This document shows positions 29,654 through 46,057 of a stretch of 64,000 bases of DNA, in pieces. Within the stretch, counting starts at the first letter, position 1; every line of letters begins with the position of its first letter. This stretch comes from Evansella clarkii (lineage in GTDB: Bacteria > Bacillota > Bacilli > Bacillales > Salisediminibacteriaceae), in contig NZ_KV917376.1 in assembly GCF_002019695.1 (NCBI RefSeq), positions 3,252,040-3,316,039 of the forward strand, given 5' to 3'. A program made the translations under genes and the position numbers. The notes beneath the pieces were generated by a model. The model did not search any database and was not told where the DNA came from. It was given only the letters and a program-made list of their open reading frames with translations.

Positions 29654-29682
29654 TTGACATTATCTTCCTCGCCCGGTATAAT
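29654..29682 (+). promoter_or_regulatory. Consensus sigma-A promoter of the proS T-box transcript
   Basis: TTGACA (29654-29659), exactly 17 bases, then TATAAT (29677-29682). Both hexamers are perfect, as is common for T-box genes whose control lies after initiation. Confidence 0.92.
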
Positions 29683-29688
29683 TTCCTC

Positions 29689-29919
29689 AAATAACTGAAA
29701 CGCTGATGAGGATTAGTAAAGCAGTCGATGTTTCTTCAGAGAGGGGACCATTTGGTGAGAGGTTTCTGTAACAGCTGTTCGAACCTGCCTCTGAGTTCTG
29801 TGCATTATAGCACAGCGGATGAGTCAATCCGTTATCAAATAGAGAGTATAAAGCCTTGCTTTGTAAATAAGGGTGGTACCGCCAATCAATGGTCCCTTTA
29901 TTCAGAGCAGGGCTTTTTT
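29689..29919 (+). ncRNA. Proline-specific T-box leader of proS
   Basis: The conserved T-box AAGGGTGGTACCGCC is at 29869-29883. An intrinsic terminator forms from 29851-29873 with 29894-29915 and ends in six T residues. Upstream are the AGTA turn and GGTGAGAGG-type distal loop of stem I, and a specifier context GAA-CCT-G with the Pro codon CCT at 29784-29786. Uncharged tRNA-Pro would pair at both sites and switch the leader to read-through. It lies upstream of proS, as expected, although 767 bases separate its terminator from the start codon. Confidence 0.92.
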
Positions 29920-29968
29920 GTTTAAAATTTGGCTCTGGTTATTAGTAATAGAAATTTCGGTGCTGAAT

Positions 29969-30618
29969 CTGGACAAATATTTGAGTTATGGCTGAGATTT
30001 GTCCAGCAAAGCGATTAATCTGGACAAATTAGCCGTCTGGGAGTGAGATTTGTCCAGCAAAATGTCATTGCAGGACAAATTTAAGTAAAACAGACAGGAA
30101 TTTGTCCAGGTAATATCCTAATAATGGAATATATTGAAAAATTTATCACCTAATCTGGACAAATAATTGTTTTATGGCTGAGATTTGTCCAGCAAAGCGA
30201 TTAATCTGGACAAATTAGCCGTCTGGGAGTGAGATTTGTCCAGCAAAATGTCATTGCAGGACAAATTTAAGTAAAACAGACAGGAATTTGTCCAGGTAAT
30301 ATCCTAATAATGGAATATATTGAAAAATTTATCACCTAATCTGGACAAATAATTGTTTTATGGCTGAGATTTGTCCAGCAAAGCGATTAATCTGGACAAA
30401 TTAGCCGTCTGGGAGTGAGATTTGTCCAGCAAAATGTCATTGCAGGACAAATTTAAGTAAAACAAACAGAATTTGTCCAGGCAATATCCTAATAATGGAA
30501 TATACTGAAAATTTTATCACCTAATCTGGACAAATCTTTGTTTTATGGCTGAGATTTGTCCAGCAAAGCAAAATTGCAGGACAATCCTTGTCAAAATCAC
30601 AGAATTTGTCCAGAAAGC
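29969..30618. repeat. Tandem array of a 186-bp unit made of inverted 10-mers, in the proS leader
   Basis: There are three full units (starting at 29969, 30155 and 30341; 186, 186 and 185 bp) and a partial fourth from 30526. Within a unit CTGGACAAAT and ATTTGTCCAG alternate. Two 10-bp hairpin pairs have loops of exactly 18 bases, and a third pair uses CAGGACAAAT with AATTTGTCCAG. Units 2 and 3 are nearly identical. The array fills the gap between the T-box terminator and proS and has no coding frame. It is not CRISPR-like, because the repeats alternate in orientation. Confidence 0.9.
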
Positions 30619-30686
30619 CCATCCTGATGTAACTGACCAGGCCGGATCAAACGGCATCAACAAAAAATATAAAAGAGGTGCTTATT

Positions 30687-32117
30687 ATGGCAAAAGAGTT
30701 TGTTAAAGATATTACTTCCATGGACGAAGATTTCGCCCAGTGGTACACGGACGTTGTCACCAAAGCGGATCTGGTAGACTATTCCAGCGTGAGGGGTTCC
30801 ATGATTATCCGGCCCTACGGATATGCATTGTGGGAAAATATTAAAGGTGCCCTTGACAGAAGAATTAAGGAAACTGGGCATGAAAATGTATATATGCCGC
30901 TTTTTATACCGGAGAGTCTGCTCGAAAAAGAAAAAGACCATATTGAAGGGTTCGCCCCTGAGGTAGCTTGGGTGACACACGGCGGTTCAGAGGAACTTAC
31001 CGAACGCCTTTGTGTCAGACCTACTTCTGAAGTGCTTTTCTGCGAGCATTATAAAAATATTATCCATTCATTCAGAGACCTGCCAAAGCTGTATAATCAG
31101 TGGTCCAATGTTGTTCGATGGGAAAAAACGACACGTCCGTTCCTGAGAACACTGGAGTTTTTATGGCAGGAAGGGCATACTTGCCACGCAACAGACGAGG
31201 AAGCATTAGAAGAAACGGAAAAAATGCTGGATGTTTATGCGGAAATAGCAGAGAAATATCTTGCTATTCCTGTAATCAAAGGCCAGAAAACAGAAAAAGA
31301 AAAATTCGCCGGAGCAAAGCTCACATATACGATCGAGAGCCTGATGCATGACGGTAAAGCATTGCAGACAGCGACTTCCCATCATTTCGGCGACGGTTTT
31401 GCAAAAGCCTTCGGAATTCAGTACACAGATAAAGACGGCAAACTGCAGTATGTACATCAGACATCGTGGGGTTTTACAACAAGGGTTATTGGCGCGATGA
31501 TTATGGTGCATGGAGACGACCGGGGACTCATCATTCCGCCAAAAGTGGCTCCGACTGAACTGATGATTCTTCCGATTGCCCAGCATAAAGAAGGGGTTCT
31601 TGACCATGCGTATGAGCTGAATGAAAAGCTCTCAGCTAAGTTCAGAACAGGTATAGATGCCAGCGACAAAAAACCTGGCTGGAAATTCAATGAATATGAG
31701 ATGAAGGGTGTTCCTCTGAGACTTGAAGTGGGTCCTAAAGATATTGAAAAGGGGCAGGCAGTACTTGTTCGGCGAGATACCGGAGAAAAAGAATTTGTCC
31801 CGCAGGATCAGCTGGAAACGAGAATATCCGACTTGTTAGAGGAAATCCAGCAAAACTTGTTTAATAAAGCAAAAGAAAAGCAGCAAGAAAAAACATACAC
31901 CGCGACAAACTATGAGGAATTTAAACAAACGTTTGATCAAAAGTCAGGATTCGTCAAAGCCATGTGGTGCGGCGAGACTGCGTGTGAAGAAAAAATTAAA
32001 GAGGAAACCGGAGTAACTTCCCGCTGTATCCCAAAAGAAGGAGAGAAGATCTCTGAAGAATGTGTTTGCTGCGGGAAAGAAGCTGAAAAAATGGTCTACT
32101 GGGCTAAAGCATACTAA
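30687..32117 (+). CDS. proS: Prolyl-tRNA synthetase, archaeal/eukaryal type (ProS type 3)
   Basis: It charges tRNA-Pro. The 476-residue class II synthetase of the short form lacks the bacterial insertion domain. It has the start [20 protein letters not shown], motif 2 [10 protein letters not shown], the catalytic block [25 protein letters not shown], an anticodon-binding domain and a C-terminal zinc-type domain with Cys pairs ([18 protein letters not shown]) ending in Tyr. ATG 30687 is preferred because AGAGGTG lies 8 bases upstream; GTG 30678 sits in that site. The proline T-box upstream confirms the identity. Confidence 0.97.
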
Positions 32118-32950: not shown

Positions 32951-33796
32951 ATGGATAAAAAAATCGCACTAATAACGGGAACAAGTACAGGGCTCGGTTT
33001 TCATACTGCTCTTAAGCTTGCTGAAAATGGGTATACTGTGGTTGCTGCTATGAGAAATACTGAGAAAAAACAGAGACTTGAGGATGAAGCAGCACGTTTA
33101 CGTATAGAGAAAAACATTGATATCGTTAAAATGGATGTTACAGAACAGTCAGAAATTACAGCCATACAAAAATATGTTCAGGATAAATATGGGAAACTGG
33201 ATGTATTAATTAATAATGCCGGTTATTCACTTGGAGGAGTGACTGAGCACCTGGACACTGCCGACTGGAAAGGTCAGTTTAACACAAATTTGTTCGGTGC
33301 AGTCGCTGTCACGAAGGCCTTTCTCCCGTTAATGAGAAAAAACGGGAAAGGGAAGATTATAAACATTGGGAGCATCAGCGGGAGATTCGGTTTCCCTGGC
33401 TTAGGCCCTTATGCAGCATCAAAATTTGCATTGGAAGGCTTCAGTGAATCCCTCAGACTTGAGCTGCTGAATTTCAATATTAGTGTCAGCATAATTGAAG
33501 CAGGATCCTATAAAACTAAAATATGGGAAAAAGGGATGGGAGGTGTGAATACTGAGGAAGAAAATGAGTATTCCACACTTATCCGGAATCTGCATAAGGC
33601 AGCCGGTAACTCTGCTGAAGGAGCAGCTGAGCCTGGAGAAGTGGCAGAATTAATTTTGAAAATCTGCCGGACCGCCAAACCAAAACTACGATACCAAACA
33701 GGAAAAGGGATCAGGACAGCGACCTTCCTGAAGGGGATTCTGCCCTGGTCCTTTTTTGAACGGTTAATTTTGAGAAAAATTTACTCGAAAAAATGA
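32951..33796 (+). CDS. Short-chain dehydrogenase/reductase
   Basis: 281 residues with the classical SDR cofactor motif TGTSTGLG (about residues 9-16), NNAGYSLGG near 85, catalytic Ser in NIGSISG and the YxxxK pair in GPYAASKFALEGF. The cofactor is NAD(P); the substrate is unknown. ATG 32951 is preferred because TAGGAG lies 8 bases upstream; GTG 32933 would overlap it. It is a single gene with no clear partner. Confidence 0.9.
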   Translation: MDKKIALITGTSTGLGFHTALKLAENGYTVVAAMRNTEKKQRLEDEAARLRIEKNIDIVKMDVTEQSEITAIQKYVQDKYGKLDVLINNAGYSLGGVTEHLDTADWKGQFNTNLFGAVAVTKAFLPLMRKNGKGKIINIGSISGRFGFPGLGPYAASKFALEGFSESLRLELLNFNISVSIIEAGSYKTKIWEKGMGGVNTEEENEYSTLIRNLHKAAGNSAEGAAEPGEVAELILKICRTAKPKLRYQTGKGIRTATFLKGILPWSFFERLILRKIYSKK

Positions 33797-33864
33797 ATAT
33801 GTTTACATGAATCAATTTCATAATTCAAGATTTTCATCATTAATACGAACATTATCTTATAATG

Positions 33865-34030
33865 TTACTCTGTTGGTCGATTTTCGCTTCAGACGGACGC
33901 GTTCTGCGGGCACGGCTTCAACTAATTTTTGACGACTGAATGCCGTCAAATATGGATTTTCAGCTTTTGATGCTTTTCCCGCCAGAGTCGCCCTCTTACG
34001 CTGCAATCGAAAAGTAATGTTCATCTTTTT
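33865..34030. repeat. Diverged copy of repeat family B
   Basis: CGATTTTCGCTTCAGACGGA and GCGGGCACGGCTTCAACT follow the same order as GATTTTCACTACAGGACGCT and CGGGCATTGCTTCAGCT at 40570-40612. Both end with a GCTRCAATC block. It lies in the 364-base gap between the SDR and patatin genes. Nothing else is evident in that gap. Confidence 0.5.
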
Positions 34031-34160
34031 TATGGAAAGTCTATATATAAAATTCATTCACTTGTAAAAAAGGCAAGGAAGTAAAATCTGCCAGAAATAC
34101 CTTTAAATGAAATGTTCTCGGGGTACATACTAAAAAACTGCATTTTTGGAGGAATTTGCT

Positions 34161-35069
34161 ATGCGCATTTTATGTCTGGACGGCGGAGGGATTCGTGGTA
34201 TTTTTTCCGCTGCAATTCTTCAGGAGATAGAACAAGAATGCGGAAAACCAGTAAATGAAATGTTTGATATGATTGCAGGCACCAGTACAGGTTCCATTAT
34301 CGCGGCTTCAGTAGTTTTAAATAAAGGCTTAAATGAAGTAAAAGAAAAATATAAAACGCATGGGAAAGTGATTTTTACTCCGCAGGCTAAAATTGGACTG
34401 TTTAAAACCGTATATAATGATAAAGAAATGCGAAAGTACTTCAGGGAGCAATTTGGAGAAGTAAGCCTCTCTGAAATAAAGAAACCATTACTCATTCCTT
34501 CTGTGAACATTAGTGAAGGCTCCCCCTATGTGTACCGGTCAAATTACCGGAAGGATGTGCAGGAAGATTTGTCGGTAAAAGTTTGGGACGCCGTCCTTTC
34601 TTCCTGTTCAGCGCCAGTTTATTTTCCGCCAAATAATGTACAAAATAAATATTTAACGGCAGATGGAGGGTTATGGGCCAATAATCCTTCACTCGTATGC
34701 CTTACAGAAGCTGTCCACTACTTTAAAGAACCGATGGATCAGGTGAGAATCCTTTCCATAGGAACAGGAGAGCAGAAAATAAATTTTGAAATAAATTCTA
34801 AGAAATCCTGGGGAATTAAAGAGTGGCTTCCTTTTCATCTCCAGTCCAGAAGAATTACACCAAAACTGCTGGACCTTGCAATGCACTTGTCGTCCGAAGC
34901 AGTTTCCGAACAATGTGAAAAGCTGATGGGTAAAAATTATTTACGGCTGAACGCCGATCTTGGAAAAGAAGTCCCGTTTGATGAAATGGAAAGTATTGAG
35001 GAGCTTGTTGAGCTCTCTAAGCAAGTAATCAAGAACAAGAAAAGTGAAGTTCTGGAATTTTTACGTTAG
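34161..35069 (+). CDS. Patatin-like phospholipase
   Basis: The 302-residue patatin fold has the oxyanion loop DGGGIRG at residues 6-12, nucleophile Ser in GTSTG (about 41-45) and the catalytic Asp in DGGLWANNP near 172. The family consists of acyl hydrolases acting on lipids. ATG 34161 is chosen because GGAGGAA lies 6 bases upstream; TTG 34146 begins within that site. No signal peptide is present. No nucleotidyltransferase neighbour is seen, so there is no sign of a CBASS effector role. Confidence 0.9.
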   Translation: MRILCLDGGGIRGIFSAAILQEIEQECGKPVNEMFDMIAGTSTGSIIAASVVLNKGLNEVKEKYKTHGKVIFTPQAKIGLFKTVYNDKEMRKYFREQFGEVSLSEIKKPLLIPSVNISEGSPYVYRSNYRKDVQEDLSVKVWDAVLSSCSAPVYFPPNNVQNKYLTADGGLWANNPSLVCLTEAVHYFKEPMDQVRILSIGTGEQKINFEINSKKSWGIKEWLPFHLQSRRITPKLLDLAMHLSSEAVSEQCEKLMGKNYLRLNADLGKEVPFDEMESIEELVELSKQVIKNKKSEVLEFLR

Positions 35070-45929: not shown

Positions 45930-46057
45930 GAACCTGAATGCTCTTACACTGCTTGAGCTGGAGCAATTCTGTGACTCAAGGGATGCAAGACGCTCTTGCA
46001 CTACTTGAGCTCGAGTAATTATGTCACTCAAAGTATGCAAGATGCACTTGCAACTTA
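45930..46057. repeat. 52-bp tandem repeat, two and a half copies, after nrdB
   Basis: Units at 45930-45981 and 45982-46033 share GCTCTTRCACT, CTTGAGCTSGAGYAATT and TGTSACTCAA. A partial third unit (ATGCAAGATGCACTTGCA) ends near 46057. There is no reading frame. The rest of 45879-46226 has a small GCTGGA-N-TCCAGC hairpin and the terminator below. Confidence 0.75.

Follow-up and report, generated by a model that had tools for sequence, protein, structure and literature searches.

Extragenic palindromic repeats are usually attributed to transposases or to RNA folding. Among Gram-positive bacteria, the BOX elements of Streptococcus pneumoniae are modular extragenic repeats, built from oriented A-B-C modules with a variable number of internal modules. 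The bcr1 and other MITE-type repeats of the Bacillus cereus group occur singly, with inverted repeats at their termini and duplicated target sites. Membership in the REP/BIME class is associated with the binding of gyrase, IHF or DNA polymerase I. In the accessible text of two articles (PMC2817692, PMC3733652), the second of which also names bcr1, REP/BIME elements are described as short inverted repeats with more than 100 copies per genome that are mostly extragenic and lie chiefly between convergent or co-directional genes. The same texts describe them as alternating in orientation, with modular spacers and a length that varies between strains (PMC2817692, PMC3733652).

The locus analyzed here belongs to a 64,000-nucleotide stretch of Evansella clarkii DNA, referred to as the window. 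Between the T-box and proS it carries 11 inverted pairs of 10-mers at 29969-30613, a count that admits up to four mismatches in a pair and interior lengths of 17-19 bp (Table 1). A sequence-only reading of this DNA had described a tandem array of inverted 10-mers with a period of about 186 bp downstream of the T-box, made of three and a half units with three pairs each, two pairs per unit having loops of exactly 18 bases, and about ten strong hairpins in all. This description is borne out closely. TRF reports a period of 186 bp with 3.3 copies and 97% matches over 29966-30569, and the arms follow the pattern > 18 < 13 > 18 < 13 > 19 < 45 in three full units plus part of another. In every full unit pairs 1 and 2 have 18-bp interiors, the third interior measures 19, 19 and 18 bp in turn, and the distances between unit starts are 186, 186 and 185 bp. 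The proposed extent was correct at its start and needed correction at its end, where the final arm stops at 30613 and not at 30618. Sites of the 10-mer with at most one mismatch number 32 in the window, compared with a mean of 5.9 and a largest value of 14 in 100 shuffles; 21 of the 32, every exact site among them, belong to the array. The predicted RNA fold of 29920-30680 has an energy of -247 kcal/mol, where 20 shuffles average -169 (z -13), and in the minimum-energy structure the final 28 bases to 30680, including the ribosome site, are unpaired. The possibility of an assembly artefact, raised in the same reading, is unlikely because the congener G003 has an array at the same proS position, with 9 pairs compared to 11.

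Table 1. Features of the proS leader and its array (window coordinates)
Feature	Position	Strand	Basis
Consensus sigma-70-type promoter TTGACA-17-TATAAT, ahead of T-box	29654..29682	+	Consensus scan, 12/12 positions
proS T-box leader	29694..29900	+	Rfam RF00230, 110.2 bits vs gathering score 93
Unit 1: three inverted CTGGACAAAT/ATTTGTCCAG pairs, interiors 18, 18, 19 bp, 13-bp joins	29969..30109	.	
45-bp spacer 1, AT-rich, core AATGGAATA	30110..30154	+	
Unit 2	30155..30295	.	
45-bp spacer 2, sequence identical to spacer 1	30296..30340	+	
Unit 3, third interior 18 bp	30341..30480	.	
45-bp spacer 3	30481..30525	+	
Partial unit 4: an intact pair plus a pair whose left arm (30577-30586) is degenerate	30526..30613	.	
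proS, prolyl-tRNA synthetase	30687..32117	+	TIGR00408, 611 bits on ORF

The upstream part of the leader is an ordinary proS T-box, and the array lies behind the RF00230 match and outside it. A consensus scan of the array's + strand gave no promoter-like site, and proS RNA is therefore expected to cross it. The gene itself probably starts at the ATG at 30687 behind AGAGGTG; the mechanically called open reading frame begins at an in-frame GTG at 30678. The T-box motif and proS are separated by 813 bp in the genome of the window (G000) and by 678 bp in G003, both with the array. In the next congener, G001, whose ProS is 85% identical, the distance is 93 bp and the array is absent, and G006 and G005 have 316 and 559 bp without a copy of the array repeat. 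The T-box pattern search gave no match in G002 and G007, and the query ProS protein produced only weak, partial matches in G004 and G008. Among named relatives, the distance has a median of 111 bp and a maximum of 661 bp (78 of 80 loci, those with a recognisable motif), and an array-type inverted pair at proS was found in none of the 80, which are the ProS loci kept for comparison (best 82% identical). This variability indicates that the spot tolerates inserts or changes in length, and the proS leader seems merely to carry a copy of the repeat.

The window holds other elements as well. An unrelated tandem repeat with a 52-bp period and a TTGCACTACTTGAGCTCGAGCAA core is located at 45940-46052 between convergent genes that match models for ribonucleotide reductase beta and for an aminotransferase; L181 has what by eye is a similar motif at the place of the G000 array L040. 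A dispersed noncoding repeat at 33788-34065 is 83% identical to L047:1015-1301, with partial matches in L044 and L046 and no Rfam match at the gathering score. It directly precedes a phospholipase gene (34146-35069), about 2 kb downstream of proS, whose product matches the CBASS cGAMP-activated phospholipase model NF041079 with 247 bits against a cut-off of 200.

The sequence-only reading had proposed a genome search for the 10-mer pairs, and this search reveals a dispersed family. With a pattern of two 8-base arms separated by 10-38 bases, 164 GGACAAAT...ATTTGTCC pairs are found in G000, 121 in G003, and 0 or 1 in 38 other relatives. They make up at least 25 array loci in G000, all but one of them holding two or more pairs, and at least 21 in G003, both counts being lower bounds as the lists of places may miss weak or late ones. 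For G000, 24 loci were fetched, including the single pair L167 and the duplicate L046, and one more was recognized by synteny; 155 of the 164 strict pairs fell within loci collected before the last two loci were added. The range of the family is narrow. Doublets occur in 2 of 35 family genomes, namely G000 and G003, equivalent to 2 of the 9 genus genomes searched, and a strict triplet occurs in 1 of 397 order genomes, G000 alone, with G003 outside that sample. No match to the repeat was obtained in genome_contigs, viral_contigs, plasmids or phages, collections from which near records are possibly excluded and of which the first two were queried with exact 10-mers. Among the papers listed by literature searches (by sequence text, and on repeats, BIMEs, Bacillus and T-boxes) no published description of the family was met, and the 8-base arm does not appear in the main text of two systematic stem-loop surveys (PMC2267715, PMC1590033).

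Across these loci the arrays share a geometry, > 18 < 13 > 18 < 13 > 18 < 45, repeating as an oriented 185-bp unit. Distinct interiors are exactly 18 bp long in 145 of 149 cases in G000 and 113 of 121 in G003. Among short spacers, 69 of 73 in G000 and 60 of 64 in G003 measure 13 bp; among long spacers, 30 of 32 and 25 of 28, respectively, measure 45 bp. These counts exclude L046 and set aside ten places where successive arms have the same direction, together with eight gaps of 95-97 bp, the length expected with one decayed pair. The 13-bp spacer often prolongs the palindrome (CAAA-N5-TTTG). In 17 G000 arrays the variable segments have 77 bits of positional information in common, compared to 20 null runs that average 35 and do not exceed 37; in this test the null was given 4 restarts and the real data 20, and unsupervised orientation misframed the proS array with its 19-bp third interior. 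The excess suggests a single oriented 185-bp unit as the common ancestor of the arrays. In L038, L075 and L076, the last with 24 pairs across 1.4 kb, steps of 51 bp follow one another with no 45-bp spacer, which implies that a single pair can amplify on its own too. The two spacer classes differ by 32 bp (45 minus 13), about three helical turns, and 51 bp corresponds to 4.9 turns at 10.5 bp, so that helical phasing of the spacers is only suggestive.

All 46 loci are intergenic when open frames of at least 100 codons stand in for annotated genes and array-overlapping frames are set aside. In G000, 11 of the 25 loci are convergent, 14 co-directional and none divergent, compared with 22 convergent and 47 divergent among 177 control gaps (at least 50 bp, from the fetched loci of both genomes; p 0.0004 and 0.002). 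Leaving out L046 and L167 gives 11 of 23 convergent and none divergent, with p 0.0003 and 0.003 against the genome's own gaps. The bias is weaker in G003, with 7 convergent, 13 co-directional and 1 divergent locus (n = 21; p 0.05 and 0.04 against its own gaps). No shared function was found for 30 neighbouring proteins, taken at or close to 17 of the 25 G000 loci; a STAS domain is present in 2, and 2 lack a Pfam match. The idea of a device specific to leaders, which the sequence-only reading had entertained, finds no support in this distribution of at least 25 loci in G000. Because the units are scattered genome-wide without leader bias, an outcome that the same reading had named as refuting it, a leader-specific RNA or translation element is unsupported, and of the functions it had listed a protein-binding array and a tolerated repeat survive.

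The orientation of the unit allows the arrays to be compared with the direction of replication. The dnaA gene lies at 1.138 Mb in G000 and at 1.930 Mb in G003. As second replichore boundary we used the point opposite dnaA in G003 and 3.42 Mb in G000, inside the interval 3.32-3.51 Mb over which local GC skew switches sign; a G000 boundary directly across from dnaA would fall at about 3.75 Mb, and the choice affects only L051, a locus without a 45-bp spacer. Local skew is consistent with the replichore assignment save at two loci, where it is near zero. Tested on the 23 of 28 locus groups with an intact 45-bp spacer (L046 grouped with L034), this spacer has one direction relative to replication in 20 groups after correction for composition, 16 of them clear against 2 clearly opposite. 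Uncorrected, the figure is 19 of 23; random orientations match this count in 15 of 2000 cases and the margin in 3 of 2000. The strongest exception is the proS group itself (-28.2; 1.1 against 9.0), L041/L084 is a weaker one, and no clear direction emerges for L044/L082 and L076. Replication direction is followed less closely by the 18-bp segments (22 of 28 groups) and the 13-bp segments (21 of 27), a strand bias confounded by purine richness: the leading-strand purine fraction is 0.61 for 18-bp interiors and 0.51, that is no bias, for the 45-bp spacer. Since the idea of polarity arose from part of the data on which it was tested, it calls for independent strains. A leading-strand gene ends at the array in 43 of 46 loci, which makes the directions of replication and transcription inseparable here. 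At convergent loci, though, the array also adjoins the end of a lagging-strand gene, and even so the spacer goes mostly with the leading strand.

Comparison of the two genomes informs us on what has been kept and what has changed in these arrays. Flanks with 89-96% identity define 16 orthologous array loci, and synteny a seventeenth. Hairpin number is unequal in 15 of 16 orthologous array pairs, with 2 against 9 as the extreme and differences of one possibly reflecting decayed arms; the recent amplification proposed for the proS array from sequence alone agrees with this turnover. The spacers of the 16 orthologous pairs carry 386 substitutions and 6 indels, against 1565 substitutions and 172 indels in the remaining noncoding DNA at these loci (Fisher p 5e-10), a comparison in which spacer units within one array are not independent and long spacer indels are undercounted because detection allowed a length change of about 4-5 bp. 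Between nearest orthologous hairpins of these pairs, taken with at most eight interior differences, arms diverge by 4.8% and interiors by 15.0%. Together, the divergence and indel figures indicate that arm sequence and spacer length are held and that spacer sequence is free.

The arms themselves show no excess of paired changes. At 31 of the 46 loci, L046 omitted, same-position changes in both arms amount to 8 of 117 for 18-bp pairs (9.2 expected; 3 complementary) and 5 of 90 for 13-bp pairs (7.6 expected; 3 complementary). All eight double changes in the 18-bp pairs fall at arm position 2, the other positions seldom varying, and this confinement makes the absence of covariation weak evidence. 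Taken with the length kept outside the pairs, the lack of arm covariation favours half-sites on double-stranded DNA. Larger rearrangements are visible as well: L034:2271-4976 and L046 form an inverted duplicate of about 2.7 kb with 99.6-99.9% identity, at 217 kb and 2349 kb of G000, which carries an IS110-type transposase and the whole array. Three orthologous sites are without an array, two of them short but diverged and one with an apparent decayed first arm, and no clean insertion junction or target duplication was found at these three sites.

Among the described systems, REP/BIME is the nearest in layout and placement. The arrays share with it high-copy, short palindromic units in extragenic position, which alternate, form modular arrays and vary in number. 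They differ in showing no complementary arm changes (with low power beyond arm position 2), in having rigid spacer lengths, with 10-bp arms that enclose 18 bp in place of a compact hairpin, and in being organized as a whole oriented unit of 185 bp. By eye, no GTAG/CGTC tag is common to 21 array edges and the spacers. In a search for RAYT-type flanking, no 18-bp-interior pair was found within about 2 kb on either side of 8 Y1_Tnp genes (at most two mismatches per arm, among the matches listed); what these flanks do contain is isolated single sites and, about 2 kb off at one orthologous locus pair, a solitary exact 10-mer in each genome. With tag, flanking RAYT and complementary changes lacking, we describe the array as BIME-like in layout and do not call it a BIME. 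BOX elements have another architecture than alternating 10-mers. The bcr1 and MITE-type repeats resemble the family in being dispersed and lineage-limited among Bacillus relatives, but the arrays here are tandem and no target duplication was seen. The unique spacers of a CRISPR array are not seen here, as spacers recur from unit to unit within arrays. When 16-mers taken from within 1.2 kb of the four G000 Y1_Tnp matches were counted across about 330 kb of fetched DNA, one of these genes proved to have a different recurrent palindromic motif, CCGGGTACGAATGAACCCGG, nearby at L070:1108-1160; the 16-mers of this motif have 5 occurrences in that DNA on both strands, itself included, and the motif is perhaps the own REP of the nearby transposase.

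We give a probability of about one half to the reading that this is a lineage-limited extragenic repeat family of REP/BIME-like layout, that its members are candidate phased protein-binding arrays on double-stranded DNA, and that the proS leader tolerates one copy. The 10-mers would be half-sites for a double-stranded-DNA-binding protein whose subunits occupy fixed helix positions, so that spacer length would be selected and spacer sequence would not. Arrays may grow and shrink via recombination between units, and their shared direction may reflect either how the repeat spread or a bound complex meeting forks or transcription. In the proS leader the array would fill slack between the T-box terminator and the ribosome site, being transcribed through and tolerated. 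The conservation of length could instead stem from recombination that accepts only in-register units. A bolder extension, which we regard as doubtful, would make the arrays a chromosome-wide, polar and helically phased system for an undescribed nucleoid or segregation protein: a stiff protein ladder placed where leading-strand genes end and pointing in one direction relative to replication on both replichores, with the proS copy reversed.

Against a protein-binding array stands the possibility of a non-autonomous mobile element of REP type that a Y1 transposase (RAYT or IS200-like) would move, with polarity arising from insertion into single-stranded lagging-strand DNA. Both G000 and G003 contain four Y1_Tnp matches, array direction is biased relative to replication, and some loci are filled in one species and short or array-less in the other. 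We nevertheless find it unlikely: Y1_Tnp matches occur in 9 of 9 genus genomes and arrays in 2, and neither flanking pairs, a common GTAG-like edge tag nor clean insertion junctions and target duplications were found in the searches described above. Improbable, too, is an RNA element whose hairpins stabilize mRNA 3' ends or bind an RNA protein and, in proS, tune the leader. The very stable RNA fold, the position of arrays at 3' ends, the purine-rich interiors on the leading and usually coding strand, and the expected passage of proS RNA through the array all point in this direction, but the arms show no covariation, the 45-bp spacers, which lie beyond the pairs, keep their length as well, the proS copy has the opposite spacer direction, and its ribosome site is left unpaired. 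A selfish or neutral satellite, functionless and kept uniform through unequal exchange, would fit the presence in only 2 of 9 genus genomes searched, the highly unstable unit number and the absence of a common neighbour function. It is hard to credit nonetheless, as spacers diverge freely between arrays whereas arms and lengths do not, and homogenization within an array cannot alone explain conservation between arrays at separate loci. Finally, a proS-specific regulator placed downstream of the T-box can claim that both species keep an array in this leader; the 24 other G000 loci beside unrelated genes, the short array-less leader of G001 despite its closely similar ProS, and the variable T-box-proS distance with no such pair at any of the 80 relatives' loci make it very improbable.

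The array family represents, in a Bacillus relative, a case that fits neither the transposase nor the RNA-folding account as far as tested. In it spacing, not pairing, is conserved, and direction follows replication or the leading-strand gene. The family therefore offers a direct test of repeats as DNA-protein scaffolds.
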